IMG/VR virus record: IMGVR_UViG_3300009481_005154
Location: 1 to 22,620 of that record
Origin: a virus
Reading direction: 5' to 3' (one strand)
DNA length: 22,620 nucleotides
Shown here: positions 2,363 through 21,078 of the stretch, piece by piece
Layout of the letters: the number at the start of each line of letters is the position of its first letter
How positions within the stretch are numbered: the stretch's first letter is position 1
The notes under the pieces: generated by a model
Database searches by the model: none
The model's input: only the letters and a program-made list of their open reading frames with translations
Told to the model about the DNA's origin: nothing
Translations under genes and position numbers: made by a program

Positions 2363-3355
2363 TTATCCTTTGCGCTTGAAGGTGCGAGCGATCACGTCGC
2401 CCCAGGGTTTGGCCTGAGGCGTTGGGCCCGGTTGCGGGTGGGTGGAGGAGATGTCGGGGTCATCTGCCGCGCGGGCGTCGATCAGGGCCTTGCGGATATC
2501 CGCGAGGGAGGCCTCGGCGGACAGAAAGCCCGCTGCCATTTGCGGTTGTCCTGCCAAGCGGCAGAGATCGACGACGGTTCTGGCGTAGGCCATGGTCTCG
2601 TGGCGGATCGCAGCGGGATCAGGTGCAGGATCAGGTTTTGCGACCGGGGCAGCTTTGGGTTTGGGGTCTGCGACAAGATCAACGCTGGCGTTGGCCTTGG
2701 CTACGGGTGACAGTTTCGGTTCGGGTTCCGGTTCGACCACGTCGGTTTTTTCTGCCGCCTTCACTGCCCTCACGATTTCCGGCGGTGCATTGCGGAACCG
2801 GCTCACATCAAAGCTGGCGGCCATTTTGACCGGCTCGGCCATGGTATCGGCAAAGCCCATCTCCAGCGCCTCGGCGGCATCCAGCCAGGTTTCCTTGGCC
2901 ATCAGTTTCGCGATGTCCTTTTCCGCCTTGCCGGATTTTGCGGCATAGCCGCGCAGCAGGCTGGCACCAATCTTGTCGAGCGCATCGGCCATGGCGCGCA
3001 TATCAGCCGCCGTGCCCATCACCATGCCGGACGGGTCATGGATCATCAGAAAGGCATTTTCCGGCATGATGATTTCATCGCCGGCCATGGCAATATAGGA
3101 CGCGGCCGAGGCGGCGATGCCGTCGATGGTCACGGTTACAGTACCCGTATGGCGTTGAAGGGCGTTGTAGATCGCCACCGCATCAAAGACCGAACCACCC
3201 GGACTGTTGAGCCTGAGCGTTAGCGGAGCCTTGTCGGGCAACTTGCCGAGATCAGCCAGAAACGCCTTGGCCGACACGCCGTAAGCGCCAATTCCATCAT
3301 AGATCGAGATTTCCGCGCCCGCATCAAGAGCGCAGATTGAATACCAGTTGTTCAT
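2363..3355 (-). CDS. ClpP/S49-type head maturation protease (gpC-like)
   Basis: A 330-aa protein with an N-terminal ClpP-fold protease domain (about residues 1-175) and a Pro/Lys-rich C-terminal tail. The oxyanion strip is LNSPGGSVFDA (49-59). The nucleophile is probably Ser86 in SAASYIAM, and the His is His106 in MIHDPSG. At the place where ClpP has its third residue (ERD before FLSA) this protein has KETWLDA with Glu155, so the third catalytic residue may differ. The tail after about residue 200 (PEPEPKLSP, then a helical end) could act like the scaffold portion of lambda gpC/Nu3; that part is inference. The gene sits 4 bases after the portal gene and cleaves head proteins during assembly. 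Confidence 0.88.
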   Translation of the reverse strand: MNNWYSICALDAGAEISIYDGIGAYGVSAKAFLADLGKLPDKAPLTLRLNSPGGSVFDAVAIYNALQRHTGTVTVTIDGIAASAASYIAMAGDEIIMPENAFLMIHDPSGMVMGTAADMRAMADALDKIGASLLRGYAAKSGKAEKDIAKLMAKETWLDAAEALEMGFADTMAEPVKMAASFDVSRFRNAPPEIVRAVKAAEKTDVVEPEPEPKLSPVAKANASVDLVADPKPKAAPVAKPDPAPDPAAIRHETMAYARTVVDLCRLAGQPQMAAGFLSAEASLADIRKALIDARAADDPDISSTHPQPGPTPQAKPWGDVIARTFKRKG

Positions 3356-7668: not shown

Positions 7669-8197
7669 CGTCCGGCGCAGGATCGGTGAGCCCGATATCG
7701 TCAGGATCGGTGCCTGTTTTGTCGTCTGGGTCCGATTGCACATCGCTGTTGGCCAAATCCTCAAGAACGTCCCGCAATGTCCCGCGCAGCAGGTCCCGTG
7801 TTCCGGCCAGGTTGCCCGTTTCATAGACCAACGGGGCCAGCCGATCCGGCAGCGACAGCAACCGGGTGCGCAACAACGCCAAAACCGCAATCCAGGCGGC
7901 CTCGGCGTCGTCCGCGGCAATCAGCGAACCGCGCCGCTGGTTCGCTTCCATTTCCGCAAGATCAGCCCGGGCCCGGATGAACCGGGCACGTTCCACAGCA
8001 TAATCCGGTGCCCCGGCCTGGGCGCTCATTGCCTGATCGCGCAGGTAGCGCACATAGCCCCTAACCGAGCCGATCAGGTCATATTGCCCCCGCGTTGCTT
8101 TCGGGATCACTCCTTCGCGGCTCAGCTGCTGCACCCGGCGTTCGGACAGGTCCAGAAGCTTTGCGATTACCGCGAGGGGCTGTGTGGCGGCGGCCAT
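7616..8197 (-). CDS. Terminase small subunit, lambda Nu1-like
   Basis: A 193-aa protein (lambda Nu1 181 aa). The N-terminus holds a winged helix-turn-helix of the Nu1 type (AVIAKLLDLSERRVQQLSREGVIPKATRGQYDL, residues 9-41), which recognises the packaging site. The middle (about 60-130) is helical (ERARFIRARADLAEMEANQRRGSLI) and is the typical Nu1 segment for self-association. The C-terminal 40 residues are Asp/Pro/Gly-rich (DPDDKTGTDPDD) and would reach to the large subunit. AGAGGA lies 8 bases before the ATG. Its 3' end overlaps the start of the large terminase gene by 53 bases or more, in a different frame. Confidence 0.9.
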   Translation of the reverse strand: MAAATQPLAVIAKLLDLSERRVQQLSREGVIPKATRGQYDLIGSVRGYVRYLRDQAMSAQAGAPDYAVERARFIRARADLAEMEANQRRGSLIAADDAEAAWIAVLALLRTRLLSLPDRLAPLVYETGNLAGTRDLLRGTLRDVLEDLANSDVQSDPDDKTGTDPDDIGLTDPAPDGEDGAPDPAATAGADDQ

Positions 8198-8818: not shown

Positions 8819-9093
8819 TTGCGATCGACCCATCCATCTTCCCGCCGTTCCGCTGGAGCGGCGGTTTCTCGTTCCGAGCGCCGTGCCCTGATCGCTTCGA
8901 AAACCCGCCGCAGCGCGAACGATCTCGCCAGGCTGACAAGGCTGAAAATCCCGCCCATCTTCATGTTCTGCACCAGCGTGGTATGCAACCCGAAGACCGG
9001 GAAGATCAGGATCTGCGTTGCGACGGCAACGCCGTAGCCCACCGCGATATTGGCGACGGCCTCGACCAGCGACATAGCCCGGCTCTGCTTCAT
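8812..9093 (-). CDS. DUF7220-like small membrane protein
   Basis: A 93-aa protein with two hydrophobic stretches: about residues 9-36 (VEAVANIAVGYGVAVATQILIFPVFGL) and 46-60 (MGGIFSLVSLARSFALR), followed by a charged tail (RRSERETAAPAERREDGW). It matches my recollection of DUF7220, a small two-helix inner-membrane family frequent in alphaproteobacterial prophages; its role is unknown. It starts in an ATGA overlap with the methyltransferase stop, so the two are probably co-translated. An in-frame ATG six codons downstream is a possible alternative. A holin-like role cannot be excluded from topology, but nothing in the context supports lysis. Confidence 0.7.
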   Translation of the reverse strand: MKQSRAMSLVEAVANIAVGYGVAVATQILIFPVFGLHTTLVQNMKMGGIFSLVSLARSFALRRVFEAIRARRSERETAAPAERREDGWVDRNQ

Positions 9094-10322
9094 GCAGCTT
9101 CACGTCCGGATTTGATCTCGTCAAAAGCGCGTCCGTCGCTGTCCAATACGGCCGGCTTCCCGGTGAATTGCTGCCAGCGCTGTACCGCCACATCGACATA
9201 AGCCGGGTTCAGCTCGATCCCGAGACAGACCCGCCCAGTGGATTCCGCCGCGATCAACGTGGTGCCCGATCCCATGAACGGCTCATAGATCGCCTGACCC
9301 GGGCTGGAATTATTCAGAATCGGACGGCGCATGCATTCCACCGGCTTCTGCGTGCCGTGCACGGTTTCGGCGTCCTGATCCTTGTTGGCAATCTGCCACA
9401 GCGTCGTTTGCTTGCGATCTCCGGCCCAATGGCCCTTGCCGGTTTTCTTCACGGCATAAAGGCAGGGTTCATGCTGCCAATGGTAATCGCCCCGGCTCAG
9501 AACTAGCCGGTCCTTGGCCCAGATGATCTGCGATCTGATCTTGAACCCCGAAACTTCGAGGCTTTCAGCGACCTCCCCAGCGTGGAGCGCGCCATGCCAG
9601 ACATAGGCCACATCACCCGGAAACAGCGCCCAGGCCTCGCGCCAGTCAGCGCGGTCGTCATTCAGCACCTTGCCGGTGCGTTTGGTCTTCGCCGCGCCGG
9701 TCTGGTTGCGCCACGACGGATCGTATTCCACACCGTAGGGAGGATCGCTGACAAGCAACAACGGTTTGATGCCATCCAGCACCCGCTCGACATCGGTCGC
9801 CACCGTGCTGTCGCCGCAAAGCAGTCGATGGTTTCCCAGCACCCAGAGGTCGCCCGGACGGCTGACCGGATCCTCCGGCGTCTCGGGAATGTCATCCTCG
9901 CCCTCCTGCGCGCCGTCGCCGTCAGCAAGCCCGTTCAGCAGGTTGTTCAATTCCTCGTCGGTAAAACCGGTCAGGTCGAGATCGAAGTCCGCCGCCTGCA
10001 AATCACCCAGTTCCAGCCCGAGCAGCTCATTGTCCCATTCGGCATTCTCACCCGAACGGTTGTCCATGATCCGAAAGGCCCGCGCCTGGGCCTCGGTCAG
10101 CCCTTTCGCCACGTGCACCGGTGCCGTTTCCAGCCCCAGTTGCTGCGCGGCCGCCAACCGGGTGTGTCCGGCCAGCACGATCATCGCCTCATCCACCACG
10201 ATGGGTTGACGCCAGCCGAACTCCCCGATCGAGGCGGCAACCGTGGCAACGGCTTTCTCGTTGCGCCGAGGGTTGCGCGCATAGGGAATGATCTGCCCGA
10301 GGGGCAGGTCGATCACGTCCAT
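9090..10322 (-). CDS. ParB-domain DNA methyltransferase (beta-class, probable adenine-N6)
   Basis: A 410-aa protein with two parts. Residues 1-110 form a ParB/sulfiredoxin-type domain (IPYARNPRRNEKAV at 12-25; AGHTRLAAAQ at 51-60). Residues about 155-395 form a SAM-dependent DNA methyltransferase with catalytic DPPY at 193-196, HGTQKPVE at 322-329 and the SAM-binding FMGSG at 349-353. The order DPPY before FxGSG is the beta class, and DPPY favours adenine-N6 over cytosine-N4. No restriction gene is next to it, so it is an orphan modification enzyme, perhaps protecting phage DNA or altering regulation. The target site cannot be read from sequence. It stands alone downstream of a long repeat-rich leader. 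Confidence 0.9.
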   Translation of the reverse strand: MDVIDLPLGQIIPYARNPRRNEKAVATVAASIGEFGWRQPIVVDEAMIVLAGHTRLAAAQQLGLETAPVHVAKGLTEAQARAFRIMDNRSGENAEWDNELLGLELGDLQAADFDLDLTGFTDEELNNLLNGLADGDGAQEGEDDIPETPEDPVSRPGDLWVLGNHRLLCGDSTVATDVERVLDGIKPLLLVSDPPYGVEYDPSWRNQTGAAKTKRTGKVLNDDRADWREAWALFPGDVAYVWHGALHAGEVAESLEVSGFKIRSQIIWAKDRLVLSRGDYHWQHEPCLYAVKKTGKGHWAGDRKQTTLWQIANKDQDAETVHGTQKPVECMRRPILNNSSPGQAIYEPFMGSGTTLIAAESTGRVCLGIELNPAYVDVAVQRWQQFTGKPAVLDSDGRAFDEIKSGREAA

Positions 10323-10471: not shown

Positions 10472-10642
10472 GTTTTTTGAAACGTCACTGGGAAAGCCTC
10501 GCGCCTCGCCCCCCCGTATACGTTTACAGCGGGAAGGGACCCGTTCAATATCAATGGGTTATGAGTCGATGCCAATGTTCTGTGCTTTGCGTTCTGTCTT
10601 GAAACCGTTCATCATCCCTACGTATTTATCGAACTTACCACC

Positions 10643-10681
10643 CATATACCGGCGAGACCCGAAATCTGTCTGGCAGAAAAC
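10643..10681 (-). promoter_or_regulatory. Copy A of three-copy promoter/operator-like element
   Basis: Read on the minus strand this is CCAGACAG (10673-10666), then 12 bases, then GCCGGTA (10653-10647) and TATGG. The same layout with the same 12-base gap occurs at 15922-15960 and 19061-19098. If used as a promoter, GACA would sit at -35 and TATATG at -10, pointing left towards the methyltransferase gene. The match to ordinary sigma-70 promoters is weak at -35, which fits a phage-specific sigma factor or an activator. Confidence 0.55.
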
Positions 10682-10700
10682 AATCTTTTTTCATTTTTTC

Positions 10701-11141
10701 TCAGATTGATCCGTTATCGGACCGGGCAAGCTCGATCACACGCTGCATCGAGAGCTTTGAGGATACCTGTCTCCTGTTCAAATGATGGGCAATCAGGCAA
10801 AGCCCATAGATCCAATGCTGGTGGGCCGACGCCCGCGCGAGGCCGACCGTCCAGCAGATGGTTTTCCAGCGCGCGCCCTGGGCTTTCATCCAGACAATCT
10901 TGCCGTCATCTGGTTCGAGGCACGCGGTCCAGGTCAGGGTTTCCTCCATCCGGCTTATGGCTTCAGGCGATGGCAGTACCCGCATCGGCGTGGGTTCCTG
11001 CCCCACCTTGTCGGCAAAGCTGTGGAAGTATTCTGGCCACGCGTTGAAATACCCGGTGAGCCTGGGCTCGGGCAGGCGTTTGAGCACGAAGGCGGACTCG
11101 GACAGGCGCGCCTCCACGAGACTTGGGGTCCATTTCGTCAT
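10701..11141 (-). CDS. DUF6362 family protein
   Basis: A 146-aa protein that I recognise as DUF6362, common in alphaproteobacterial prophages beside replication genes; its function is not established. The N-terminal third carries EARLSESAFVLKRLPEP and a GYFNAWPEYFHSF motif. The middle has SPEAISRMEETLTW. The segment ARWKTICWTVGLARASAHQHWIYGLCLIAHHLN (about 87-119) has the shape of a helix-turn-helix, as in late-gene activators of the sigma region 4 type; this is inference. It ends the replication operon and starts in an ATGA overlap with the 68-aa gene. The three-copy element A lies just beyond its stop. Confidence 0.75.
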   Translation of the reverse strand: MTKWTPSLVEARLSESAFVLKRLPEPRLTGYFNAWPEYFHSFADKVGQEPTPMRVLPSPEAISRMEETLTWTACLEPDDGKIVWMKAQGARWKTICWTVGLARASAHQHWIYGLCLIAHHLNRRQVSSKLSMQRVIELARSDNGSI

Positions 11142-11344
11142 CGCGCGTCCTCCCCATCCCGTGGGCGTTTGCCGTAGAGTTTTTCACCAAGCTGGCGGAC
11201 CAGTTCCCGCTCCGGCCAAGTGAGGCGTTGATCATCGAGCGAGACAGCGAGCATGCCCTGTTCATTCCAGCCATCGCGTTTGACCTGATCGGGATTGCGC
11301 CGGCTGCCACCAAACCCACGAGGGGTAAAGCTCATGCCCTTCAT
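11138..11344 (-). CDS. Small conserved phage protein, function unknown
   Basis: A 68-aa basic, probably soluble protein (MKGMSFTPRGFGGSRRNPDQ at the start, LTWPERELVRQLGEKLYGKRPRDG at the end). I do not recognise a named family. Its reality is supported by ATGA overlaps with both neighbours, which place it in frame inside the operon without gaps, and by a charged helical C-terminus. There is no membrane segment and no Cys cluster. Confidence 0.65.
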   Translation of the reverse strand: MKGMSFTPRGFGGSRRNPDQVKRDGWNEQGMLAVSLDDQRLTWPERELVRQLGEKLYGKRPRDGEDAR

Positions 11345-11598
11345 GGCGACACCTCCGGCAGCAGGGCCGCGTATCCGATGACGTCGGTGACCCCATCGCG
11401 ATAGGTGGGGTCATGGTTGAGGCGGGCGAGTTTCAGATCGATCATGCAAAGCACGACCTCGGCGGGGGTGATGGGCCGATCCAGCGTCAACGACCAGCGC
11501 GCGGCAATCGCGGCCATGGCTTCCATCGGCGGTCCGTAGGCAGTGCGGCGGTCGTCAAGCACCCCGGCCGTATGCTCAAGAACATTGCGGGCACTCAT
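11341..11598 (-). CDS. DUF6378 family protein
   Basis: An 85-aa protein with the DUF6378 pattern: DRRTAYGPPMEAMAAIAARWS (residues 16-36), then ITPAEVVLCMIDLKLARL (43-60) and TDVIGYAALL near the end. This family is frequent in phages and shares the look of small all-alpha NTP pyrophosphohydrolase-like proteins, though activity is not shown and the metal ligands of MazG are not evident. It overlaps both neighbouring genes by 4 bases (ATGA), so it is translated as part of the replication operon. Confidence 0.8.
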   Translation of the reverse strand: MSARNVLEHTAGVLDDRRTAYGPPMEAMAAIAARWSLTLDRPITPAEVVLCMIDLKLARLNHDPTYRDGVTDVIGYAALLPEVSP

Positions 11599-12482
11599 TT
11601 GAGACCCCCTTTGGTTTCAATGGCCCAAAGCAGGATCGCGATGGCGTCGGCCTCGTTGTCGTCCTTGGGGGAAAAGCCACGTGCACGCGCCGCCTCGATC
11701 ATCATGGTTTTGCTCGCATTGCCCTTGCCGGTTGCCGATTTCTTGATCGTGCCAACGGGGACGCCCTGATAAGGCACGCCCCGCATTTCGGCCCAAGCAG
11801 TCAGGACCGCCATCAGCCCGCCATAAACGTGCGAGGCATCGACTCCTTTGTGGTTTCTGACTTCTTCGTAAAAGATTGCTTCGATCGGTCCTGCGAGCCG
11901 GTCCATTTCACTCAGCCAGTTCGTGAAGCGCAAATACCGCATGCCGCCACCGTCAAAGCGGCTGGGTTTGAACGATACCGTTCCGCTGGTGATCAGGCCG
12001 TCGTAGCCGCGCAGGGCCCAGCCGGTCGTTGTGCCGAGGTCAAGAGCCAGAACCGCCTTGGCGCGGATTTCTGTCTGAATTGGGTCTTCGGGGTTTAGCC
12101 GGGCGCTTGCCCCCGGCGCTACGACCCCTTGTGGTTTCAGGGATATTCCGCAGAAACCTCTGCGCGTATTTGTATTGTGGCGCGCAAAGCCTCTGTCACG
12201 CAAAGCTTCAGAAAACCGTTTGATTGAGCCAATGAAACACTCGTGCACCTTTGCCCAGTTTTTCCAATCGGCAAAAAGTTCCGAGGTTCCGGATGTCTGG
12301 TTCACATCCACCAGGCATTGGGATTCCATCCAATTGTTGACTGCATCATGATAATCGGATTGGGGTGCGACGGGTGCGACGGGTCTCGTCTTATCAGACG
12401 TATAGGCGCGCGTATGCGCGCGCGTAACGCCTATATAGGGACTACCTGTCGAACCCGTCGCAACCATTGATTTCATGGGCAT
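11595..12482 (-). CDS. RuvC-like nuclease fused to a primase C-terminal-type domain
   Basis: A 295-aa protein. The ATG at 12482 is chosen over one at 12518 because GAGGAG lies 7 bases before it and the primase stop is one base away. Residues 1-42 are low-complexity (VTRAHTRAYT, VAPVAPQ). Residues about 42-115 match the C-terminus of the neighbouring primase, 29 of 65 positions identical without gaps by hand count. Residues about 145-295 form an RNase H-fold RuvC-like domain: VLALDLGTTTGWAL (first Asp at 148), IFYEEVRNHKG (second acidic site) and DDNEADAIAILL (final Asp residues). Such phage enzymes cut Holliday junctions or branched DNA before packaging. The fused domain may dock it to replication forks; that is inference. 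Confidence 0.85.
   Translation of the reverse strand: MPMKSMVATGSTGSPYIGVTRAHTRAYTSDKTRPVAPVAPQSDYHDAVNNWMESQCLVDVNQTSGTSELFADWKNWAKVHECFIGSIKRFSEALRDRGFARHNTNTRRGFCGISLKPQGVVAPGASARLNPEDPIQTEIRAKAVLALDLGTTTGWALRGYDGLITSGTVSFKPSRFDGGGMRYLRFTNWLSEMDRLAGPIEAIFYEEVRNHKGVDASHVYGGLMAVLTAWAEMRGVPYQGVPVGTIKKSATGKGNASKTMMIEAARARGFSPKDDNEADAIAILLWAIETKGGLK
12138..12332 (-). repeat. Duplicated primase C-terminal domain, copy in the RuvC-like gene
   Basis: Translates from WMESQC to GFCGISL. It aligns without gaps to the primase C-terminus encoded at 12520-12714; the two copies are offset by 382 bases in tandem. Shared signature: SG(S/T)S-x-LFA-x-WK-x-WA, GS-x-KRFSE-x-L, RGF, NT, RG-(Y/F)-x-G. DNA similarity is also visible, for example TTCAGAAAACCG in both. 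Confidence 0.8.
12363..12462. repeat. Nested inverted repeats around an alternating purine-pyrimidine tract
   Basis: GGGTGCGAC is tandemly repeated at 12363-12380. TGCGACGGG (12375-12383) is the reverse complement of CCCGTCGCA (12454-12462). Inside lies TATAGGCG (12401-12408) with its reverse complement CGCCTATA (12428-12435). In the centre 12406-12426 is a 21-base strictly alternating purine-pyrimidine run, mostly CG steps, which is prone to Z-DNA. All of it lies in the 5' coding part of the RuvC-like gene, just after the primase gene. Confidence 0.75.
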
Positions 12483-12483
12483 T

Positions 12484-14856
12484 TTATTTCTCCTCAAATA
12501 GGTCATTATTGCTGTCATTTATGGTCAGCCCCCGATATCCACGGGCTTTCCGGGTGTTCATTTTTTCAAACCCGCGGTTGCCGAGGTTTTCAGAAAACCG
12601 CTTCATGGATCCGGGGTATTCGCCGTTGGCCTCGGCCCATGATTTCCAGCTGGCAAAAAGCGCGCTCGAGCCCGACCACGCGGCAGGAGCTTTTTCGCAA
12701 GCCTCCTCAAGCCAGCGGCCCATGGCGTCTTCGGCCTCGAAATAATCCTCGGTGGCTGCCATCACGGCCGCAGGGGGGCAAAGGCCCTCTCGCTGCCACG
12801 CGAGACAGCCTTCAAGCGCCCAGGCGAGGATGCCGTCCTTCTCGGTCAGCAGACGTTCCTGAAGCCGCTGGTCGCGTTTTGCCGGTGGGATGGTGATCGT
12901 GAACGGCACCATGTGGAGGCGCCGGCGCATGGCCTCGTCCACATTGCGGATCGAGGGCTTGTGGTTGCCGACGATCAGCAATTTGAACTGCGGGATGAAC
13001 TCGAAGAAATCCTGACGCATGAACCGCGCGGTGATCTTGTCGCCCCCGGTCAGCGCCTTAAGCTTGCTTTCGGCCCAGCGACTGCCCTGTTCGGTCTCGA
13101 TCGAGGTGACGATGCGGGCGCCCCGCAGCCCCGCCATGTCGGTCGGGTGCCGATCCCCATGGGTTGCCATGAACATATCCATGGCCGCGACGGTGGCGTA
13201 GTCGCCCATGATCGCGGTCAGCGTATTGGCAAACACCGACTTGCCGTTGGCACCGGTTCCGTAGAGGAAAAACAGCGCGTGCTCGGTGGTAACACCGCTC
13301 AGGCAATAGCCCGCCATGCGCTGAAGATAGGATTGCAGCTCGGCATCGCCGCCGGTGACCGTACGCAGGAACTCGAGCCACACCGGGCACTCGCCCGCGA
13401 CGGAAGCGCCCGCTGTCTTGGTCATGAATTGAAGCGGCTCATGGGCGCTGACAGCCCCGCTCCTGAGATCGATGACGCCATTGGGGGTGTTGATCAGCCA
13501 GGGATCGCGATCCCAGATGTCGGTCGTGCTGGCCAGACGTCGGTCGCTGCGCGCAAGGCGCTCGACGGCGGAGACGGTTGAGGCAGACGAAAGCTTGGTT
13601 CTGATCTTGGCGGATATGGCGCGTGTGGCGGTTTCACGACAGATCTGACGTGACAGATCAAACGCTTGTAACGTGTTTTCGCGGGTCCAGACGATGCCTG
13701 TCCATTTGAACCACTGCCCCCAACCGGCAACGAAACGCCAGCTTTCGCCGTGGCGAGTGGCAAAGGTGGCTGCCAACGCGTCTTCGCTATAACGCACTGG
13801 CGCGGAGCCGCCTTGATCTCCGGGACCATTGCCGTTGCCTTTGGCGTCATCAGTTTCCTCGGCCGTGCCCGGGTCACCGTTTCGCTCGGCATCGCGCTTC
13901 CAGAGACGTTCTGCCTCCTGGCGAAGGCGGCCGTCAGGCCAGGGCGGCTCAATGCGCGCGGCGTTATAGGCAACGATCTCGTCCCAGGCCTCACCAGGGG
14001 TGACATGGCCCTCGCGACAACGGCGGATCCAGTAGCCGATGATGCGGGAGAGCGCGTCAAAGCGTGTGGTGCCATCGGCCCCGCCCTCGCGCACCTTGCG
14101 CCCGAAGAGTTCCGGCACGCTGCCTTTGGTGCTGGAGGCATCGTTAAAATCAAGATCCGAGGCCGCCTCGCCCTCAAGCGGCGGCATGGCAATCACCGCT
14201 TCGATCAGATCGCCGATGTCATAGTCACGTGCTTCATGATGCAGGATATCGACCAGCCGTCGCACGCCGGATTTGGCATGGATGGAGCCCGCCACCCGGA
14301 TCGGCTGATGGGCCGAGCGAAACGCCGGATCACCGCCGGCTTTCGTTGCGATCGTGTGGCGCGCGCGACAAACGCGGGCGATGTCGTCGCCTGTCGCCGG
14401 TTCCGTCAGGCGCCAGTAGAGGTGGCGCTTGCGCTGGCCTTCGGGCGTGACACCACCCGAGGCCACTTCGAGCGTGGGTGTCCCGAGATGGCGCGCCAGA
14501 TGTTCGCTTTTGGCCGCAATATCCCCGTGATCAAGATCAACGAGAACGACCTGCGTCTCGATGATATGTTCGGCGCGCGCTTCGCCGGCTTTGGCAACCG
14601 TGCCCGGAATGACAAAGAGCGCCATTCCAGAATTCCGCGCCCAATCGGCCTGCAGGACCAGCTTGTCCACGAGATCGCTGCCGGTTTTTAGAAACGGGGT
14701 ATGGGGCGGCGCATCGAGCGCGCCTTTCTCCGCCAGAGCGCGCACCGGAACCAGATATTCGCAATAGCCAAACACCACATCGGCGAAGGTTGTTATCATC
14801 TCACGGTTGATTGCTGTCGCGATATCACCCTGATTGACATCGGTCGGGCTCGTCAT
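12484..14856 (-). CDS. D5-type primase-helicase with N-terminal primase domain
   Basis: A 790-aa replication protein. The N-terminal part looks like a RepB/AEP-type primase: VVLVDLDHGD (about 103-112) carries the metal-binding Asp pair, RHLYWRL (144-150) the conserved His, and IRVAGSIHAKSG follows. A linker rich in Asp/Gly/Asn is at about 325-355. The SF3 helicase has Walker A GTGANGKS at 533-540, ARIVTSIETEQG as Walker B region, LLIVGNHKP as sensor and MRRRLHMVPF with the arginine finger. A winged-helix-like domain ends the protein and is duplicated in the next gene. The ATG at 14856 (ATGA overlap with the nuclease gene, GAGGT 8 bases upstream) is preferred over the ATG at 14892. Confidence 0.93.
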   Translation of the reverse strand: MTSPTDVNQGDIATAINREMITTFADVVFGYCEYLVPVRALAEKGALDAPPHTPFLKTGSDLVDKLVLQADWARNSGMALFVIPGTVAKAGEARAEHIIETQVVLVDLDHGDIAAKSEHLARHLGTPTLEVASGGVTPEGQRKRHLYWRLTEPATGDDIARVCRARHTIATKAGGDPAFRSAHQPIRVAGSIHAKSGVRRLVDILHHEARDYDIGDLIEAVIAMPPLEGEAASDLDFNDASSTKGSVPELFGRKVREGGADGTTRFDALSRIIGYWIRRCREGHVTPGEAWDEIVAYNAARIEPPWPDGRLRQEAERLWKRDAERNGDPGTAEETDDAKGNGNGPGDQGGSAPVRYSEDALAATFATRHGESWRFVAGWGQWFKWTGIVWTRENTLQAFDLSRQICRETATRAISAKIRTKLSSASTVSAVERLARSDRRLASTTDIWDRDPWLINTPNGVIDLRSGAVSAHEPLQFMTKTAGASVAGECPVWLEFLRTVTGGDAELQSYLQRMAGYCLSGVTTEHALFFLYGTGANGKSVFANTLTAIMGDYATVAAMDMFMATHGDRHPTDMAGLRGARIVTSIETEQGSRWAESKLKALTGGDKITARFMRQDFFEFIPQFKLLIVGNHKPSIRNVDEAMRRRLHMVPFTITIPPAKRDQRLQERLLTEKDGILAWALEGCLAWQREGLCPPAAVMAATEDYFEAEDAMGRWLEEACEKAPAAWSGSSALFASWKSWAEANGEYPGSMKRFSENLGNRGFEKMNTRKARGYRGLTINDSNNDLFEEK
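12520..12714 (-). repeat. Duplicated primase C-terminal domain, copy in the primase gene
   Basis: Translates from WLEEAC to GYRGLTI and is the normal C-terminal, winged-helix-like end of D5-type primase-helicases. It is the probable source of the copy at 12138-12332. Confidence 0.8.
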
Positions 14857-15599
14857 CCCCAGCACCTCGCGCGCCAGTCGCAAAACCGGCATTGGAAATG
14901 CTCGGGATCGATGGTGTGGCGCCCCAGAAGCTCACCGGCATCGCAGGCTTTCAGAATGGTGACCGCCTTGTCGCTGGCCGCTTGCGCGCGCGCTGCATCA
15001 AACGGCACCAGTTCGTGCCAGATTTCACAGGTATCCTTGTTGATCGCGGTAAAAAGCGCCGGCGCTTCCGCGAGGCCAAGATAGGCCTGATAGAGCGCGA
15101 TCTGGGTGGCATAGATCGACTTTGATTTGACAACTCCGCGCTTGACGATGTCGCGCCAGTTCCTGGCGTTCGCCGATTTGCATTCCCAGAGGGCTGGCAC
15201 CGCCATGCCGTTGGGGGTGGCCACCACGACACCGTCGGCATGTCCTTTGATGCGCCCGCCTGCTGCGGAAAACCCGAACTGGCCGCCTTCTCGGCTGCGG
15301 GTTCTCAGGTCAAACCCGGCTTTGCGAAGCCAATCGATAGCAAGGTCTTCGAGCACATGGCCAAGCGCGAATATCCGCAAGGTTTGCCCGTTAAACCCGG
15401 CCCCATCATCCTTTTTTACATGGAGATACTCGTATTGCAGGCGGCGTTGTCTCGCGTCCCCCAGACGGCTGCCACCGAGATAGTCTCGTGGCACATGGCG
15501 CGCGTTTTCGGCAACAAGGGCGGTATCAATGTAGCCGTTGACACCGTCAGCGAATGTCGGAGGCGTTTCCCGGTGATTGAAATCAAGCAGGTCAGCCAT
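14853..15599 (-). CDS. PD-(D/E)XK nuclease, RecB/Cas4-like
   Basis: A 248-aa nuclease of the RecB/Cas4 type. Motifs in order: GHVLED with Glu84, GHADG with Asp122, WECK with Glu139 and Lys141, and the helical QIALYQAYLG with Gln166. The C-terminus has CRFCDWRARCW (Cys237, Cys240, Cys246), three of the four cysteines that bind an iron-sulfur cluster in Cas4/AddB; the fourth is not certain. It likely resects DNA ends for phage recombination, working with the Sak4-like ATPase encoded divergently on the plus strand. It starts in a TGATG overlap with the 68-aa gene and ends in an ATGA overlap with the primase. Confidence 0.87.
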   Translation of the reverse strand: MADLLDFNHRETPPTFADGVNGYIDTALVAENARHVPRDYLGGSRLGDARQRRLQYEYLHVKKDDGAGFNGQTLRIFALGHVLEDLAIDWLRKAGFDLRTRSREGGQFGFSAAGGRIKGHADGVVVATPNGMAVPALWECKSANARNWRDIVKRGVVKSKSIYATQIALYQAYLGLAEAPALFTAINKDTCEIWHELVPFDAARAQAASDKAVTILKACDAGELLGRHTIDPEHFQCRFCDWRARCWG

Positions 15600-15805
15600 C
15601 AGAACGGCACCTCCGACTCTGTTCGGGGTGCGCTTGTGCCCATGGACTCGAGATAACCGTCGACCGCCGCCTCGGCGAGCTTTGCCGCCTGCTGTGCATC
15701 GAGGTCGGTGAAGCGCGTCTCCCAGCCTGTTTCCGCCATGAGGGCGGCCATGAATTTGAGAGCGTTTCGGAGCGCTGCGCGTTCGCGCGAATCGGGATCA
15801 ATCAC
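15599..15805 (-). CDS. Small conserved phage protein, GTG start
   Basis: A 68-aa acidic protein of unknown function (RAALRNALKFMAALMAETGWETRF, LDAQQAAKLAEAAVDGYLESM, then TESEVPF). It is predicted to be helical; the end (EVPF) resembles the acidic-hydrophobic tips by which SSB-type proteins bind partners, but this is only a resemblance. The start is GTG, supported by AGAGGGG just upstream and by the GTGA overlap with the preceding small ORF. It shares a base with the start of the nuclease gene (TGATG). Confidence 0.7.
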   Translation of the reverse strand: MIDPDSRERAALRNALKFMAALMAETGWETRFTDLDAQQAAKLAEAAVDGYLESMGTSAPRTESEVPF

Positions 15806-15897
15806 GCGCGCCCCTCTGCGGTCTTTTGGATCCGAAAGGCCGGATTATGGTGGCTCGCGCGCAGGGCGCGCAGGCATGGTCTCGTTGGTTTCGTCAT
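15802..15897 (-). CDS. Possible 31-aa first gene of the replication operon
   Basis: A short open frame, MTKPTRPCLRALRASHH at its start, 31 residues, strongly basic. It begins at an ATG with GGAG about 10 bases upstream and ends in a GTGA overlap with the next gene, the same packing as the rest of the operon. It starts some 25 bases downstream of element B. It could be a true small basic protein or a leader peptide that brings ribosomes to the GTG-started gene. There is no recognised family. Confidence 0.45.
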   Translation of the reverse strand: MTKPTRPCLRALRASHHNPAFRIQKTAEGRA

Positions 15898-15921
15898 GAA
15901 ATCTTGCTCCGGTTTCCCTCT

Positions 15922-15960
15922 CACATACCGGCGTGAGCGGAAAACTGTCGGGCAGGAACT
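15922..15960 (-). promoter_or_regulatory. Copy B of three-copy promoter/operator-like element
   Basis: On the minus strand: CCCGACAG (15952-15945), 12 bases, GCCGGTA (15932-15926) followed by TGTGAGAGG. As a promoter it would have GACA at -35 and TATGTG at -10 and start about 15-20 bases before the first ORF of the replication operon, which has its ribosome site in place. CTCAC and GTGAG flank the GCCGGTAT core here, giving this copy an extra inverted repeat not seen in the other two. It would serve as the leftward operon promoter or operator. Confidence 0.6.
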
Positions 15961-16041
15961 TTCCCAGAACAAGCGCTCTGGAAAACGCGTTGAAAACCGC
16001 GTACGAAAACAACCCTGACGAAACTTATGGAGCAGACCCGA
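15961..16041 (+). promoter_or_regulatory. Leader of the two-gene cassette with GAAAAC repeats
   Basis: Upstream of the rightward cassette there are three GAAAAC units at 15981, 15992 and 16005, spaced 11 and 13 bases, and an inverted repeat CCAGA-N8-TCTGG (15964-15981). No good sigma-70 promoter was found; TTGAAA at 15990-15995 lacks a matching -10. GGAG at 16029-16032 is the ribosome site for the ATG at 16042. Together with element B this fills the gap between the two divergent operons. Confidence 0.35.
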
Positions 16042-17241
16042 ATGAGTGCATTCAATCCCCGCATTTTCACCAACCCCGGTCGCCTGAAAGAGATTGCCCC
16101 CCAAAGGCTGAAAGCGTTCCTCACCCCGTGGCGGGATTATTTTACGGAGCGTGGCCTTGATCTTTCAGCCGCACCAATTACCGATCTGCCGTTTGAGGAC
16201 ATCGCCCATATCCTGTTGAACCCGGATGAATCGGTGCCCGAGAAAATGGTGGACGCGCTTTATTATGTGCACGAAACCGCCAACAACGAGGACATGGAAG
16301 AACTGCTCGAGCGCGCCGAGCATGCAGGGCTCGAGCTCGATGCTGATCCCGAGGTGACAGTCGCCGATGTCGCGGTCCAGATATGGCTGATAAAGCCCGA
16401 TCTGCTTCAGCGTCACCACGCCGAGACCGTGGCGTTCAAGCGCACCAATTTCATGTATTTCTCCGGATCAGCGGCAAAGAAAACCGCCGGCTCACTCCCC
16501 GACATTTCCGAGACTGCCTTCAAGGCCATGCAGGAGCACATGGATGGTTGGTTCGAAAAAAAGCGCCGTGGACACGATTGCCGTATCTTCGCATTTCCAC
16601 GTGGCAAGAAAGTCTGGCTGCTGGTTCGCCACGGAATGCCGATGCGCCGCGAGGGCAAGCATCAGGACAACGGCGAAAGCGGCATCGCTTTTTATCGGCC
16701 ACAACAGCATGACGTGCTGATCTATGACAGCGAGACCGACGAAATCGGCGTCAATGCCGGCACCAAGGGAGAGCGGGAACTTTATCTCGAGACCTTCGGT
16801 GACGTGCCGTTCGGGTCCGGGACGTATTTCGAGACATCCGTGCGTTATACGCTTGAACCCTTGCGCGACTCCGGGCCGAATTCCATGGCATGCGACGACA
16901 TCGAAGGCATCAAGGGAGTTCGCCTCGTCGAGTTTGGCCGTTTCTGGCCTGGCGCCATCCCGGAGCGGGAAATCCGCAAGGGTGATGACCTGTTCAAGGC
17001 TTACGCCGAAAACTGGAGATCGCGTCTGGGAATTGGGTCTTTCACCCATGCCACGTTCAAGTTTGCCTTTGAGGGGACCAAGCGCGAACGCTCGGTCACG
17101 ATCCGTCCCGCCAATGTCGCACGCTATGAACGGGAATCCGACGAGGCCATGATCGAAGAATGGCTGAAGGCGCGCGGGTTCTGGAACATCCCGGCGGAGG
17201 ACGCGGACGATGCTGATTTCGAAGTTCTGGAAAGCGCTTGA
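16042..17241 (+). CDS. Unrecognised 399-aa protein, first gene of a two-gene cassette
   Basis: I do not recognise a family. The N-terminal 130 residues are helical and acidic (FEDIAHILLNPDESVPEKMVDALYYVHETANNEDMEELLERAEHAGLELD). The middle (about 130-260) is mixed alpha/beta with aromatic-rich strands (FMYFSGSAAKK, GWFEKKRRGHDCRIFAFPRGKKVWLLVRHG, SGIAFYRPQQHDVLIYDSETDEIGVN). The C-terminal part has VRLVEFGRFWPGAIPEREIRKGDDLFKAYAENW and ends with an acidic tail. There is no membrane segment or signal peptide. The ATG at 16042 has GGAG 9 bases upstream; an in-frame ATG five codons earlier lacks one. It overlaps the next gene by 32 bases, so both products probably act together. Base and codon use look like the surroundings. 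Confidence 0.8.
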   Translation: MSAFNPRIFTNPGRLKEIAPQRLKAFLTPWRDYFTERGLDLSAAPITDLPFEDIAHILLNPDESVPEKMVDALYYVHETANNEDMEELLERAEHAGLELDADPEVTVADVAVQIWLIKPDLLQRHHAETVAFKRTNFMYFSGSAAKKTAGSLPDISETAFKAMQEHMDGWFEKKRRGHDCRIFAFPRGKKVWLLVRHGMPMRREGKHQDNGESGIAFYRPQQHDVLIYDSETDEIGVNAGTKGERELYLETFGDVPFGSGTYFETSVRYTLEPLRDSGPNSMACDDIEGIKGVRLVEFGRFWPGAIPEREIRKGDDLFKAYAENWRSRLGIGSFTHATFKFAFEGTKRERSVTIRPANVARYERESDEAMIEEWLKARGFWNIPAEDADDADFEVLESA

Positions 17242-18319
17242 TGCACTGAGTGATGCCGGGGCCTCACGCCACTATTGGGCGCGCTGCCTCGGGGATGAAT
17301 GGAAAGCTGCTGGCCGGTTCTTGGGGCCGACTGGCAATCTTGCAATGTCCATCGACTGCCCGTCGCCGGGCGGGGATGATTGCCCGCGCCGGGTTGTTTG
17401 CCATGCGGACGGAACCATACGGGCCATCTGCGGTGAGCGGCCAAAAATGTGTGCGGATCTGGATCTGGTCAAGGAGGACATCGCGATCCTTGAACTTGAC
17501 CGGCGCAAGCTCGGTGTGTCACTGGCAGCGGCATTGTCATTGACCCCGCCCACCAGAACACCGGCTCTGGCTCCTGTCGTGCGGATCGGCGCGCGCGACA
17601 TCGTGGCAGGCTCCGGCATACCGGTTTTTCTGACCATTCCCGGCGCCAGGCCTGATTTGCGGCGCGCGGATTTCAGCGAGGTTCTGGCGCTGACAGCCCC
17701 CGTTCTCGTTCTGACACCCGGAACGGCGTCATTGCCCGAGGAAACGGCAGACCTGCTCGACCAGCACGGCGTGACCACATTGGCATTGGATGATCTGGTG
17801 AATGCAACCGCGCCCGGAAAGCTGGCCCTGACGACGCAGGGAACAGCACAGATAGGCCGCTTGGTACAGCAGTTGGAGGACGCCAGCGCCGCCTCAACTG
17901 GTCCGAAACGTGCCTGGAATTTGCCGCCCGATGCCCGCTGGGAGGAAAACACTATCCGGTTTATTTCCGCGGAGGTGATCAACGTGACCTTCCGGGGCGA
18001 TACCCGCCGGTTCGAGCCGGACGGCCTTGGCATGAAAAACGCCACGAATGGAAAACCGACCAGGCAATGGACCTACCTGCGTGCGTTTGCCATCGCGGGC
18101 GGGCGCCTTCCTGTCAGCCCAGTCGACGTCCGGGAAACATCCAAACACCAGAAACAAAAGCAGGCGCTTTCAAACGCGCTGCGCGACGCATTCGGGATCA
18201 CCGGCGACCCGATCCGAATTGACGGAAAAGATTATGTCACGCGCTTCGTTCTGAGTGCGGACGACCTCAAACAAGGCAAACCAGACCAGCGCCAACGAAA
18301 TTTCGTCGACGACATGTAA
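17210..18319 (+). CDS. Unrecognised 369-aa protein with Cys cluster, second gene of the cassette
   Basis: No family recognised with certainty. Residues 50-81 hold five cysteines (C50, C58, C64, C74, C81), a likely metal-binding site; CPRRVVC lies in its middle. Residues about 120-215 look like a small alpha/beta domain (PVFLTIPG, PVLVLTPGTASLPEETADLLDQHGVTTLALDD). Residues about 235-350 form a third domain (WNLPPDARWEENTIRFISAEVINVTFRG, GLGMKN, RQWTYLRAFA, QALSNALRDAFGITGDPIRI) that could be a nucleic-acid-binding wing domain; this is inference. GGAGGA 8 bases before the ATG at 17210 decides the start, inside the 3' end of the first gene. An intrinsic terminator follows 30 bases after the stop. 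Confidence 0.8.
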   Translation: MLISKFWKALDALSDAGASRHYWARCLGDEWKAAGRFLGPTGNLAMSIDCPSPGGDDCPRRVVCHADGTIRAICGERPKMCADLDLVKEDIAILELDRRKLGVSLAAALSLTPPTRTPALAPVVRIGARDIVAGSGIPVFLTIPGARPDLRRADFSEVLALTAPVLVLTPGTASLPEETADLLDQHGVTTLALDDLVNATAPGKLALTTQGTAQIGRLVQQLEDASAASTGPKRAWNLPPDARWEENTIRFISAEVINVTFRGDTRRFEPDGLGMKNATNGKPTRQWTYLRAFAIAGGRLPVSPVDVRETSKHQKQKQALSNALRDAFGITGDPIRIDGKDYVTRFVLSADDLKQGKPDQRQRNFVDDM

Positions 18320-18340
18320 CGAAAAACCAAAAAATCCACA

Positions 18341-18390
18341 GATCACAAGCCGCTGAAATCACAGGATTTCGGCGGTTTTTCTTTGTGATC
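18341..18390 (+). terminator. Intrinsic terminator after the two-gene cassette
   Basis: CCGCTGAAATC (18350-18360), loop ACAG, GATTTCGGCGG (18365-18375), then TTTTTC. The 11-bp stem has a single T-G wobble. A second arm pair, GATCACAA (18341-18348) and TTGTGATC (18383-18390), encloses it. It separates the cassette from the sigma-like gene and so marks the cassette as its own transcription unit. Confidence 0.85.
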
Positions 18391-18479
18391 AAGCCTCCGA
18401 AACCGCCGCTCCCGCGAATTTTCGCCGGGTCCAGATGTTCGGGCCCTCGTGCCCGCCATTTTGAGAACGGCGACACCTC

Positions 18480-19091
18480 ATGGAGCATCTGCATCACCTC
18501 ACCGACCCCCATTCCCGCGTATCACGCAACATCCGCATACGAGCGGCCAGACTGGCGCGCTCAGGCGTCATTCCCGGCATGGATGCCGAGGATATCGAGC
18601 AGGATCTGCGGCTTGATCTCATCCGGCGCATACCGTGTTTTGATGAAACCCGTGCCTCCTTTGAAACCTTCGCTGACCGGCTGATTGCCCACCGGGTCGC
18701 CAGCCTTGCCGCAACCACGGCGGCAAAGCGTGCGGACCGTTCGATGAAATCGCTTGAGGCGCCGATCGCACCAGATGGCGAAGATGGCGGCCTGACCCTG
18801 GCTGACGTCACACCCGAGGACGCCGCCCTTTATGCACCATCCGCGTTGGGGTTAGCGGCTGGCAACGGCCTTGGCTACGACGTTGCGCTGCTTTTGCACG
18901 CGCTTTCGCCCAGCTGTCGGTCCGTGGCCATTGCGCTTGGCAATATGAGCGTGGCCGAGGCTGCGAGCGCATTGGGTCTGCACCGAAGTTCTGTTTACGC
19001 GCGCATCGTCAAGATCCGCGAGGTCGCAACAGGGCTTGGCTTGCAAGAATATTTCGCCGCCTCCCCGACAGTTTCGCGCGCCCGCCGGTAA
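18480..19091 (+). CDS. Sigma-70-like transcription regulator
   Basis: A 203-aa protein resembling phage-encoded sigma-70-family factors. A region-2-like segment lies at about 34-75 (MDAEDIEQDLRLDLIRRIPCFDETRASFETFADRLIAHRVASL), followed by an acidic linker (APDGEDGGLTLADVTPED). A region-4-like helix-turn-helix is at about 140-182 (ALSPSCRSVAIALGNMSVAEAASALGLHRSSVYARIVKIRE). It would direct host RNA polymerase to phage promoters. The ribosome site before the ATG at 18480 is weak. Its stop codon lies inside copy C of the three-copy element, so that copy can drive the downstream recombination genes. The sigma call is likely; target promoters are inferred. Confidence 0.8.
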   Translation: MEHLHHLTDPHSRVSRNIRIRAARLARSGVIPGMDAEDIEQDLRLDLIRRIPCFDETRASFETFADRLIAHRVASLAATTAAKRADRSMKSLEAPIAPDGEDGGLTLADVTPEDAALYAPSALGLAAGNGLGYDVALLLHALSPSCRSVAIALGNMSVAEAASALGLHRSSVYARIVKIREVATGLGLQEYFAASPTVSRARR

Positions 19092-19098
19092 GTGAAAG
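19061..19098 (+). promoter_or_regulatory. Copy C of three-copy promoter/operator-like element
   Basis: On the plus strand: CCCGACAG (19064-19071), 12 bases, GCCGGTA (19084-19090) followed by AGTGAAAG. The TAA stop of the sigma-like gene is part of it (19089-19091). It points right towards the 93-aa, Sak4-like, DUF669 and helicase genes. Gap length and both boxes agree with copies A and B, which point left. Confidence 0.55.
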
Positions 19099-19245
19099 CA
19101 CGAACAAAACAGCATCATGCCGGGCCTTCGGGGCAATGAAAAACCCGTTCACGGGAAACACCCCGACCGCAAACTCCAAGGCGGCGTCGGGCCCGGCAGC
19201 AGACTTCACGACGCCCCTTGGAGAGGACGCAATAGGAGCAAAACA

Positions 19246-19527
19246 ATGTTTATCTCTCCCCTCAAACGCCTGCGCCAATCCAGCATGCTTGGCGCGTTGC
19301 CTGAAAAACTCACCGTCCCACCGTTTGGATCACAGCGCGGCAAAAACCTGCCGATCGAGGTTGCGACCCTCGATGACGTGGCCTTCGCGCTCTGTGCGTT
19401 GGAACGCGAAAAAGATGGTCTCACCTATGCGCTCGAGGAAGTTTTGAAGATGGCCCGCCGTCAGGGGGCCTGTGGCGCAGATACCGCGATTTCCGCCGCC
19501 GCAGGCGATCTGGAGGCCCGCACATGA
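19246..19527 (+). CDS. 93-aa phage protein, function unknown
   Basis: A small protein, MFISPLKRLRQSSMLG at the start, then a helical segment LDDVAFALCALEREKDGLTYALEEVLKMARRQGA. I do not recognise a family. The ATG at 19246 has AGGAG 7 bases upstream; an in-frame ATG at 19117 is possible but has no ribosome site and gives an Arg/Gly-rich extension that does not look like protein. The stop overlaps the Sak4-like start (ATGA), so the two are coupled and probably function together in recombination. It has no membrane segment. Confidence 0.7.
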   Translation: MFISPLKRLRQSSMLGALPEKLTVPPFGSQRGKNLPIEVATLDDVAFALCALEREKDGLTYALEEVLKMARRQGACGADTAISAAAGDLEART

Positions 19528-20420
19528 GCCCTGCCACCACATCCACCGCCTCGCTCAAAATCATCACCGCCGATGAACGGCTGAAAGAAACCCGTGGCAT
19601 CAAGGGCGTGCTGACCGGGATTTCCGGAATTGGCAAGACCTCGCAGCTCTGGACGCTCGATCCCGCGCACACGCTTTTTCTCAATCTCGAGGCGGGTGAG
19701 CTGGCCGTGCAAGGCTGGCCCGGCGATGAAATCCGCGTACGAGACTGGGAACGGGCGCGCGATCTTGCCTGCTGGATTGGTGGCGCAAACCCCGCGATGC
19801 GCGAAGATCAGCCCTATAGCCGGCAGGATTACGAGCGGGTTTGTGCCGCCTTCGGCGATCCCGCGCGTCTTGATAAATACGAGACGATCTTCGTTGACAG
19901 CATCTCGGTTGCTTCGCGCATTTGCTTTGGGTGGTGCAAGGGCCAACCGCAAGCCCAGTCTGATCGCAGCGGCAAACCGGATCTGCGCGGGGCCTACGGC
20001 CTTTTGGGTCAGGAGATGATCGGTTGGCTCACGCATCTGCAGCACACGCCCAGAAAAAACATCTGGCTCGTGGGACTCCTTGACAAAAAGCTCGACGATT
20101 TTGGCAAGCCCTATTTTGCCCTGCAGGTCGAGGGCTCCAAGACCGGGTTGGAACTGCCCGGCATCGTTGACGAGGTCATAACCCTCACTGAAATCCGCCC
20201 CAAGGAGGGCAAAGCGTTTCGCGCCTTCGTTGCCACCACCATCAATGATTTCGGGTTTCCAGCCAAGGATCGCAGCGGTCGTCTTGCCATGCTGGAGCCG
20301 CCTCATCTCGGGCGCCTGATGGCCAAGATACGTGCGCCCCGCGACGCCAATACCGGCAAGGGCCTCGAGTTTGGTCTGCCGCAGGATGCCGCCCCAGCGA
20401 CAAACCCAACCGACAATTGA
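19524..20420 (+). CDS. Sak4-like RecA-fold ATPase (AAA_24)
   Basis: A 298-aa ATPase of the phage Sak4/AAA_24 kind, RecA-core recombinases that anneal or exchange single strands during phage recombination. Walker A is GISGIGKTS (32-40). LFLNLEAGEL (51-60) is the strand after it. Walker B is TIFVDS (121-126). The stretch GKPDLRGAYGLLGQEMIGWLTHLQH and IWLVGLLDKK are typical of the family. Near the end a polar, Pro/Thr-rich tail may bind the partner SSB. GGAGG 7 bases before the ATG and the overlap with the 93-aa gene fix the start. The DUF669 gene follows 22 bases later, the usual Sak4-SSB pairing. Confidence 0.87.
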   Translation: MSPATTSTASLKIITADERLKETRGIKGVLTGISGIGKTSQLWTLDPAHTLFLNLEAGELAVQGWPGDEIRVRDWERARDLACWIGGANPAMREDQPYSRQDYERVCAAFGDPARLDKYETIFVDSISVASRICFGWCKGQPQAQSDRSGKPDLRGAYGLLGQEMIGWLTHLQHTPRKNIWLVGLLDKKLDDFGKPYFALQVEGSKTGLELPGIVDEVITLTEIRPKEGKAFRAFVATTINDFGFPAKDRSGRLAMLEPPHLGRLMAKIRAPRDANTGKGLEFGLPQDAAPATNPTDN

Positions 20421-20442: not shown

Positions 20443-21078
20443 ATGTCTGACAGCATGGATTTCAACGGCGCGGACGCGCAAGACGCCGCATTCGATCTGA
20501 TCCCCGCGGGGACCGTCGCAAAGATCTGCCTGACGGTTCGCCCCGGTGGTGCCGGCCCCGAAGGCTGGCTCACCCAAAGCAAAACCAGCCCGGCGCTTTA
20601 CCTCAATACCGAGGCCGTCATCCTTGAGGGTCCGCATGCGCGGCGGCGGATTTACACCCGCATCGGCTTCAAGGGAAAATCGCTCAACGAGCGCGGCGAG
20701 GATGGCTACGCCAATCGCGGCCGCGCCATGATCCGGGGCATTCTGGAATCCGCGCGCGGTATCAAGGCCTCTGACGCGTCGGAGGCGGCCAAAGCCGCGC
20801 GTAAAATCCGCAGCCTCGGGGAATTGAGCGGGATCGATCTCGTTGTCAAAATCGGCATCGAGAAAGACAAGGACAAACCCGAGGATCCCGGACGCAACAC
20901 CCTCAAGGCGGCCATCGGGCCGGATCACTCGACCTATCTCAAGGTGATGGGGGCGCTGCCGGACCCGTCCGCGCGCCCCTCGATGAACCCCGACACGCCT
21001 TCGCCGCGTATGGGTGAGGACCCCTTTGCAAGCCCCGCTGATACGTCCGGCGGCAACGCGCCGTTCTGGGCCGTTTGA
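20443..21078 (+). CDS. DUF669-like putative single-stranded DNA-binding protein
   Basis: A 211-aa protein with the DUF669 pattern: MDFNGADAQDAAFDLIPAGTVAKICLTVR at the start, an OB-like beta region (ALYLNTEAVILEGPHARRRIYTRIGFKGKS) and SGIDLVVKIGIEKDKDKPEDPGRNTLKAAIGPD. The disordered Pro/Ser-rich tail ends with an aromatic-hydrophobic tip (APFWAV), reminiscent of the partner-binding tip of SSB proteins. The protein probably coats ssDNA for the Sak4-like ATPase and the helicase on either side; this role follows from gene pairing in phages. AAGGAG lies 9 bases before the ATG. The helicase gene begins 12 bases after its stop. Confidence 0.83.
   Translation: MSDSMDFNGADAQDAAFDLIPAGTVAKICLTVRPGGAGPEGWLTQSKTSPALYLNTEAVILEGPHARRRIYTRIGFKGKSLNERGEDGYANRGRAMIRGILESARGIKASDASEAAKAARKIRSLGELSGIDLVVKIGIEKDKDKPEDPGRNTLKAAIGPDHSTYLKVMGALPDPSARPSMNPDTPSPRMGEDPFASPADTSGGNAPFWAV

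Follow-up and report, generated by a model that had tools for sequence, protein, structure and literature searches.

Do three copies of a short two-box element in a bacterial virus act as start signals for the virus's own sigma factor, the subunit that tells RNA polymerase where to begin? We addressed this question in a window of 22,620 nucleotides, the whole of the stretch analysed (positions 1 to 22,620 of IMG/VR virus record IMGVR_UViG_3300009481_005154). The original prediction was that the element constitutes a phage-specific promoter regulon for a sigma-like protein encoded next to one of the copies, with a repressor operator as the alternative. Our comparative analysis supports the promoter interpretation, although no transcript 5' ends, binding or in vitro transcription data exist for any member of the family, and transcription from the elements is inferred.

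The element and the units it heads

The pattern CCMGACAG-N12-GCCGGTA matches exactly three times in the window, at 10647-10673 (-), 15926-15952 (-) and 19064-19090 (+), whereas 100 dinucleotide shuffles gave 0 matches. Copies A and B are intergenic. Copy C overlaps the end of a 203-aa gene, its bases spelling P-T-V-...-R-R and the TAA stop, and this overlap is a general feature of the family. Aligned relatives extend the element to 32 bases, nCCGACA(G/C)T-N11-GCCGGTAnGTGA. As originally predicted, each copy points into a different unit, but unit A is larger than the methyltransferase group first proposed, as it runs on into terminase, portal, protease and major capsid genes. The original prediction also missed a LexA box beside copy B and a structured RNA behind copy C. 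Its doubt about sigma-70 was right: the boxes are not sigma-70 hexamers, as the -10 position reads TAnGTG, which lacks the final T, and no other -10 fits.

Table. Features of the window discussed in the text
Position	Strand	Feature	Unit or remark
10642..10673	-	Copy A of the element	Inferred sigma-dependent promoter of the methyltransferase/late operon
15921..15952	-	Copy B of the element	Inferred sigma-dependent promoter of the leftward replication operon
19064..19095	+	Copy C of the element	Inferred promoter of the recombination unit; overlaps the 3' end of the sigma gene
18480..19091	+	ECF-type sigma factor gene, 203 aa (P0001)	Regions 2 and 4; C-terminal 10 residues, encoded by copy C, predicted disordered
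15956..15970	+	LexA box GAACTTTCCCAGAAC (GAAC-N7-GAAC)	Between copy B and the rightward sigma operon
16027..17241	+	Gene of unknown function (P0002)	First of the rightward sigma operon; likely start 16042, MSAFNPRIFTNP
17210..18319	+	Gene of unknown function (P0003)	Second of the sigma operon
19118..19198	+	Conserved structured RNA (three-way junction, related to sRNA-Xcc1)	5' leader of the inferred C transcript
19246..19527	+	93-aa gene (phrog_36009)	First gene of unit C; the hit lies in this part of ORF 19117-19527
19524..20420	+	Sak4-like ssDNA annealing protein (AAA_24)	Unit C
20443..21078	+	phrog_2300	Unit C
15802..15897	-	Short ORF (31 aa)	Right after copy B; from reading of the sequence
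15599..15805	-	DUF6511 protein	Unit B
14853..15599	-	Cas4-type exonuclease (phrog_1990)	Unit B
12484..14892	-	Primase/D5-type helicase	Unit B
11595..12518	-	RuvC-like Holliday junction resolvase (phrog_159)	Unit B
9090..10322	-	ParB-N/DNA methyltransferase fusion	First large gene of unit A
5770..7920	-	Terminase large subunit	Unit A
3360..4862	-	Portal protein	Unit A
2363..3355	-	Head maturation protease	Unit A
938..1951	-	Major head protein	Unit A

Linkage and co-divergence of the element with the sigma protein

The gene overlapped by copy C encodes an ECF-type sigma factor, with regions 2 and 4 and without regions 1.1 and 3. Pfam Sigma70_r2 is over the cut-off for the window protein and was matched in 11 of 12 members, and NCBIfam sigma70-ECF in 12 of 12, although below NCBI's cut-off for the window protein. 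A single-sequence AF2 model was poor, but the model built from an alignment has two confident domains, and its top PDB matches by Foldseek are essentially all sigma factors. The two genes preceding it in the operon match no family, and no anti-sigma gene was identified.

We then searched for relatives of this protein, as many of the 119 hits of a first pattern search in IMG/VR look like chance matches. In the 116 loci (1.67 Mb) so obtained, from prophages of many alpha-proteobacteria, every copy of the element lies at one of three places: the 3' end of the sigma gene (C, 112 of 116 loci), divergently about 3.1 kb upstream (B, 93 copies in 93 relatives) and about 8 kb upstream (A, 21 copies in 21 relatives, 7.7-8.5 kb from C). 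The reversed pattern gave 0 hits. These loci are related, and the counts are therefore not independent events. In twelve whole host genomes, zero-mismatch copies lie only in the prophage, with 2-3 per genome; relaxed scans allowing 2 mismatches match the reversed control outside the prophage, and only perfect sites were thus used. No named isolate phage or plasmid was found to carry the sigma gene.

Interestingly, a distant sigma clade (clade 2, 15 loci) lacks this element but has a different one, TGGGAC-N16-GAGTAG, at the sigma stop (14 of 15) and on the minus strand upstream (15 of 15). The clade-2 element gives 0 hits in 3.3 Mb of clade-1 strand-bases and the clade-1 element 0 hits in clade 2, yet the GAC-N18-GTA spacing is the same in both. 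The sigma tree splits the two element types at a 100/100 branch. Protein and element thus co-diverge. Such natural pairs, having diverged in step, let one map how ECF regions 2 and 4 read DNA, and could serve as orthogonal promoters.

An inferred SOS-gated cascade and the alternatives

In most relatives the sigma gene is the last of a three-gene operon whose sigma-70-like promoter abuts a LexA box of the alpha-proteobacterial type (GTTC-N7-GTTC; PMC3323433). A perfect box is present at 42 of 62 distinct B sites, against 0.0011 expected per site, but at 0 of 75 C and 0 of 18 A sites; the box is separate from the element, and a simple LexA operator role for the element was thus rejected. The arrangement LexA box, 4-7 bp, CTTG, 17-18 bp, TAnnnT was found in 38 loci. 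The window keeps the LexA box, but its own -35/-10 is weak.

The explanation that we consider likely, pending experimental data, is that the element is the promoter recognised by the adjacent sigma factor, with CCGACA(G/C)T as the -35 side read by region 4 and GCCGGTAnGTGA as the -10 and discriminator side read by region 2, the two being at fixed spacing. DNA damage would remove LexA, the host polymerase would make the sigma factor, and this would direct RNA polymerase to copies B (replication genes), C (recombination genes) and A (methyltransferase and packaging/structural genes). Direct recognition by the protein, LexA repression and the order of events are inferred. The conserved -10 side is long for an ECF promoter. 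Moreover, copy A is found only in the Roseobacter-like group, and in Paracoccus and Sphingobium relatives late genes must be expressed otherwise.

It has been shown that GafZ and GafA-C are phage-related, sigma-like alpha-proteobacterial proteins that act at promoters (PMC11150451, PMC6363796), and one might suppose that our protein is likewise a loader or anti-terminator, which binds the element at promoters made by the host sigma and travels with RNA polymerase through terminators. The long operons and the structured leader RNAs downstream would suit such a mechanism. However, the GafZ element is a palindrome between sigma-70 -10 and -35 boxes (PMC11150451), whereas this element is asymmetric, without good sigma-70 boxes flanking it. 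We detected no homology to GafA/GafZ-type proteins (hhalign probability 10%, involving only an HTH stretch; BLASTP E 1.7; no DUF6456 match), and our protein keeps region 2 as well as region 4. This reading is therefore unlikely.

Equally doubtful is an operator for a repressor or activator, be it the sigma-like protein or P0002/P0003 acting as an ordinary DNA-binding factor next to host sigma-70 promoters. The fixed, two-box form would fit, and P0002 is co-conserved with the sigma gene, a homologue also lying upstream of a clade-2 sigma gene. But orientation towards the downstream unit and GAC-N18-GTA spacing are invariant across the two clades, the element tracks the sigma clade, no sigma-70 boxes accompany the copies, and the only conserved sigma-70-like promoter belongs to the opposite, rightward operon. 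Finally, as copy C is coding in clade 1, its conservation could reflect the C-terminus of the protein, with A and B as duplicated debris. This is already contradicted: the rare Thr codon ACA is fixed in 29 of 29 distinct copies against 14% in the gene bodies (and CCG in 29 of 29 against 53%), the tail is predicted disordered, and B and A are intergenic and conserved in 62 and 18 distinct sequences with diverged spacers. In a third lineage (L282), a changed element lies just after the stop codon, where coding cannot explain it.

The closest known system is SigN (ZpdN) of the Bacillus subtilis plasmid pBS32 (PMC6751061), a weakly ECF-like sigma factor of a mobile element behind a LexA-repressed host-sigma promoter, whose own promoters on the element drive replication genes, with positive feedback. 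The resemblance is by anatomy only, and the two have not been shown to be homologous. SigN belongs to a Firmicute plasmid with a Gram-positive LexA box, its promoters largely spare the prophage structural genes, and it autoactivates from an upstream promoter, whereas here the nearest element lies at the 3' end of the sigma gene and points away. GafY/GafZ and GafA, the activators of gene transfer agents (PMC11150451, PMC9638019, PMC6363796), are phage-derived, sigma-like regulators in the same bacterial orders and act at phage-type gene clusters, but involve a DnaA-like partner and anti-termination. With bacterial ECF sigma factors (RpoE, SigE, SigH) the protein shares the region 2/region 4 architecture and a two-box promoter at fixed spacing; it differs in being encoded in prophages, in the inferred promoter inside its own coding end and in the inferred LexA gate. 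The arrangement is widespread and apparently undescribed, and gives a concrete, if inferred, wiring diagram for lytic induction, linking host SOS to a phage sigma factor and to early and late operons.

The RNA behind copy C

Copy C is followed by a conserved RNA which resembles sRNA-Xcc1 (RF02221) of Xanthomonas in its three-stem layout and internal-loop bases, but sits between a phage promoter, as inferred here, and its first gene. It scores 24.5-35.8 bits, and 27.9 in the window, below the gathering score of 53, and blastn of the RNA against phages gave only 31-base chance matches in coding genes. One might tentatively speculate that a widespread family of SOS-gated prophage sigma factors has evolved several mutually exclusive sigma-promoter pairs, with one promoter kept inside the 3' end of the sigma gene itself, and that in the larger clade this promoter launches a transcript beginning with an RNA of the sRNA-Xcc1 kind, which controls elongation or translation of the recombination genes. 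Despite the low scores, model positions 1-87 are matched with the same secondary structure, and the best RF02221 hit is at this place in 12 of 12 genomes, extending sRNA-Xcc1, known from Xanthomonas integrons, into phage leaders.

The element and its candidate sigma factor

The three copies lie exactly where the original prediction had placed them, and the pattern CCMGACAG-N12-GCCGGTA matches three times in the 22,620 bases of this IMG/VR virus record but never in 100 shuffles. A relaxed alignment over relatives gives a 32-base element, nCCGACA(G/C)T-N11-GCCGGTAnGTGA. The neighbouring gene encodes a protein of 203 aa, in which Pfam finds Sigma70_r2 and a sigma-like HTH. A 12-member alignment of this protein matches sigma70-ECF in all members, and its profile hits RpoE/SigE in the PDB. 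An AF2 model built from 22 sequences has two confident domains, at about residues 13-80 and 130-193, separated by a loose linker and followed by a disordered tail, and the listed Foldseek PDB matches are essentially all sigma factors or sigma-containing polymerase entries. The tail predicted to be disordered is the part encoded by copy C. In 29 distinct genes, the Thr codon within the element is always ACA (14% elsewhere in these genes) and the Pro codon is always CCG (53%), which identifies copy C as a DNA signal.

We then took the protein as the starting point and searched GTDB genomes and IMG/VR, which together with the window gave 116 loci (1.67 Mb). Copy C is at the 3' end of the sigma gene in 112 of them. 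In two more loci (L149 and L244), the gene is interrupted and the element lies at its far end; the gene is split by about 1.8 kb holding a DEAD-like helicase frame, which may be either an insertion or an assembly chimera. Every site with at most 2 of 19 mismatches is at C, at B (minus strand, 2.4-3.3 kb upstream) or at A (7.7-8.5 kb upstream), whereas the reversed pattern gives none. The alignment used for the search was built from element-positive loci, so these counts could lean towards them, and as the loci are related the counts are not independent. Copy A, moreover, is missing in many relatives. The hosts are Paracoccaceae, Roseobacteraceae, Sphingobium, Brevundimonas, Aquibium/Chelativorans and two Planctomycetota bins. 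In whole genomes, zero-mismatch sites are confined to the prophage, with two or three in each. The sigma genes of Rhodobacter and Aquibium (L145 and L151), which belong to different orders, are almost identical on the tree, suggesting recent transfer between hosts.

Co-divergence of the protein and the element

A further comparative analysis does not have the weakness of the element-positive alignment. A homologue is carried by 21 of 298 genomes of one family, and 17 best matches are much more distant. In 15 of these loci (clade 2), the element of the loci described so far (clade 1) is absent. A blind search for repeated gapped hexamers returned TGGGAC-N16-GAGTAG as the top pair (13 of 15 loci), and this pair sits at -21 from the sigma stop in 14 of 15 loci and on the minus strand 2.9-5.2 kb upstream in 15 of 15. 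It has no hit in 3.3 million strand-bases of clade-1 loci, and the clade-1 element has none in clade 2. In both, GAC and GTA are 18 bases apart, and the sigma tree separates the two element types by one fully supported branch. A third lineage (locus L282) has GCCGACAGTTTTTGAGCCCTCTCGGTAAGTAA just after its stop, outside the coding sequence. Although it rests on sequence comparison without transcript or binding data, this pattern is what a sigma factor and its promoter should produce, and it is hard to explain if an unrelated protein reads the element.

The LexA box, the inferred regulon and the conserved RNA

Between B and the rightward operon lies GAACTTTCCCAGAAC, the alpha-proteobacterial LexA direct repeat (PMC3323433). 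A perfect box is found within 45 bases of 42 of 62 distinct B sites, but of 0 of 75 C and 0 of 18 A, with 0.0011 expected per site. In 38 loci, the box is followed at 4-7 bases by CTTG(T/G)n, 17-18 bases and TAnnnT, a sigma-70-like promoter reading into P0002, P0003 and the sigma gene; in the window the LexA box is perfect, but the -35/-10 is weak. LexA boxes also recur 47-49 bases upstream of B in 7 of 15 clade-2 loci. The two genes that precede the sigma gene, P0002 and P0003, are of no known family, but P0002 has a 22% homologue in the same place in clade 2, so it may be a partner or regulator of the sigma factor.

Copy B heads DUF6511, a Cas4-type exonuclease, primase-helicase and RuvC-like genes, and copy C heads a 93-aa protein and a Sak4-like annealing protein. 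Copy A heads a ParB-methyltransferase fusion and, in the same direction, terminase, portal, protease, decoration and major head genes; that A transcribes all of these is inferred from orientation. The A copies have an A/T-rich upstream flank and are followed by a conserved GGTAAGTTCGA...GGTGCG stretch. In one clade-2 element (L268), the nearest large gene downstream of copy B is a serine integrase, so this regulon may control excision. In L167, L133, L245 and other relatives, a hairpin right after copy B (GGAGAGC-ATCTGGA-GCTCTCC, CAGGAC-CATCTGGA-GTCCTG) holds a ribosome-binding-like CTGGAG in its loop, with arms that change together between groups; it is weak in the window.

Just after copy C, the sequence folds into a three-stem junction (z = -2.6), conserved in 16 distinct sequences. 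Four pairs show compensatory changes, and 97.4% of cells are paired, against at most 56% when slid. A covariance model finds this RNA once in 44 of 48 sources, always after C. The sRNA-Xcc1 model of Rfam gives its best hit here in 12 of 12 genomes, full length but below threshold. A leader acting on elongation or translation is the simplest guess as to its role. A second sRNA-Xcc1-like match (30.2 bits) is present in the Paracoccus kondratievae genome (L260), away from the sigma prophage and upstream of a 100-aa gene, and is not found by the phage RNA model.

Coordinates of the features discussed in the text
Sequence	Position	Strand	Feature
Window	10600-10641		Sequence noted together with the 18 A copies
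Window	16027-18319		Two genes preceding the sigma gene
Window	18480-19091		Sigma-like gene
Window	19118-19198		Three-stem RNA
L149	10490-12287		Split of the sigma gene
L260	2456-2547	minus	Second sRNA-Xcc1-like match
L268	4394-5854		In a clade-2 element, serine integrase as the nearest large gene downstream of copy B

ALTERNATIVES: GafZ-type anti-termination

The strongest rival to the sigma factor reading was anti-termination of the GafZ type. However, DUF6456 proteins from the same hosts, DUF6456 being the annotation that GafA homologues carry (PMC9638019), show no detectable homology beyond an HTH, and the binding element of GafZ is a palindrome between sigma-70 boxes (PMC11150451). The closest functional parallel is SigN of pBS32 (PMC6751061).
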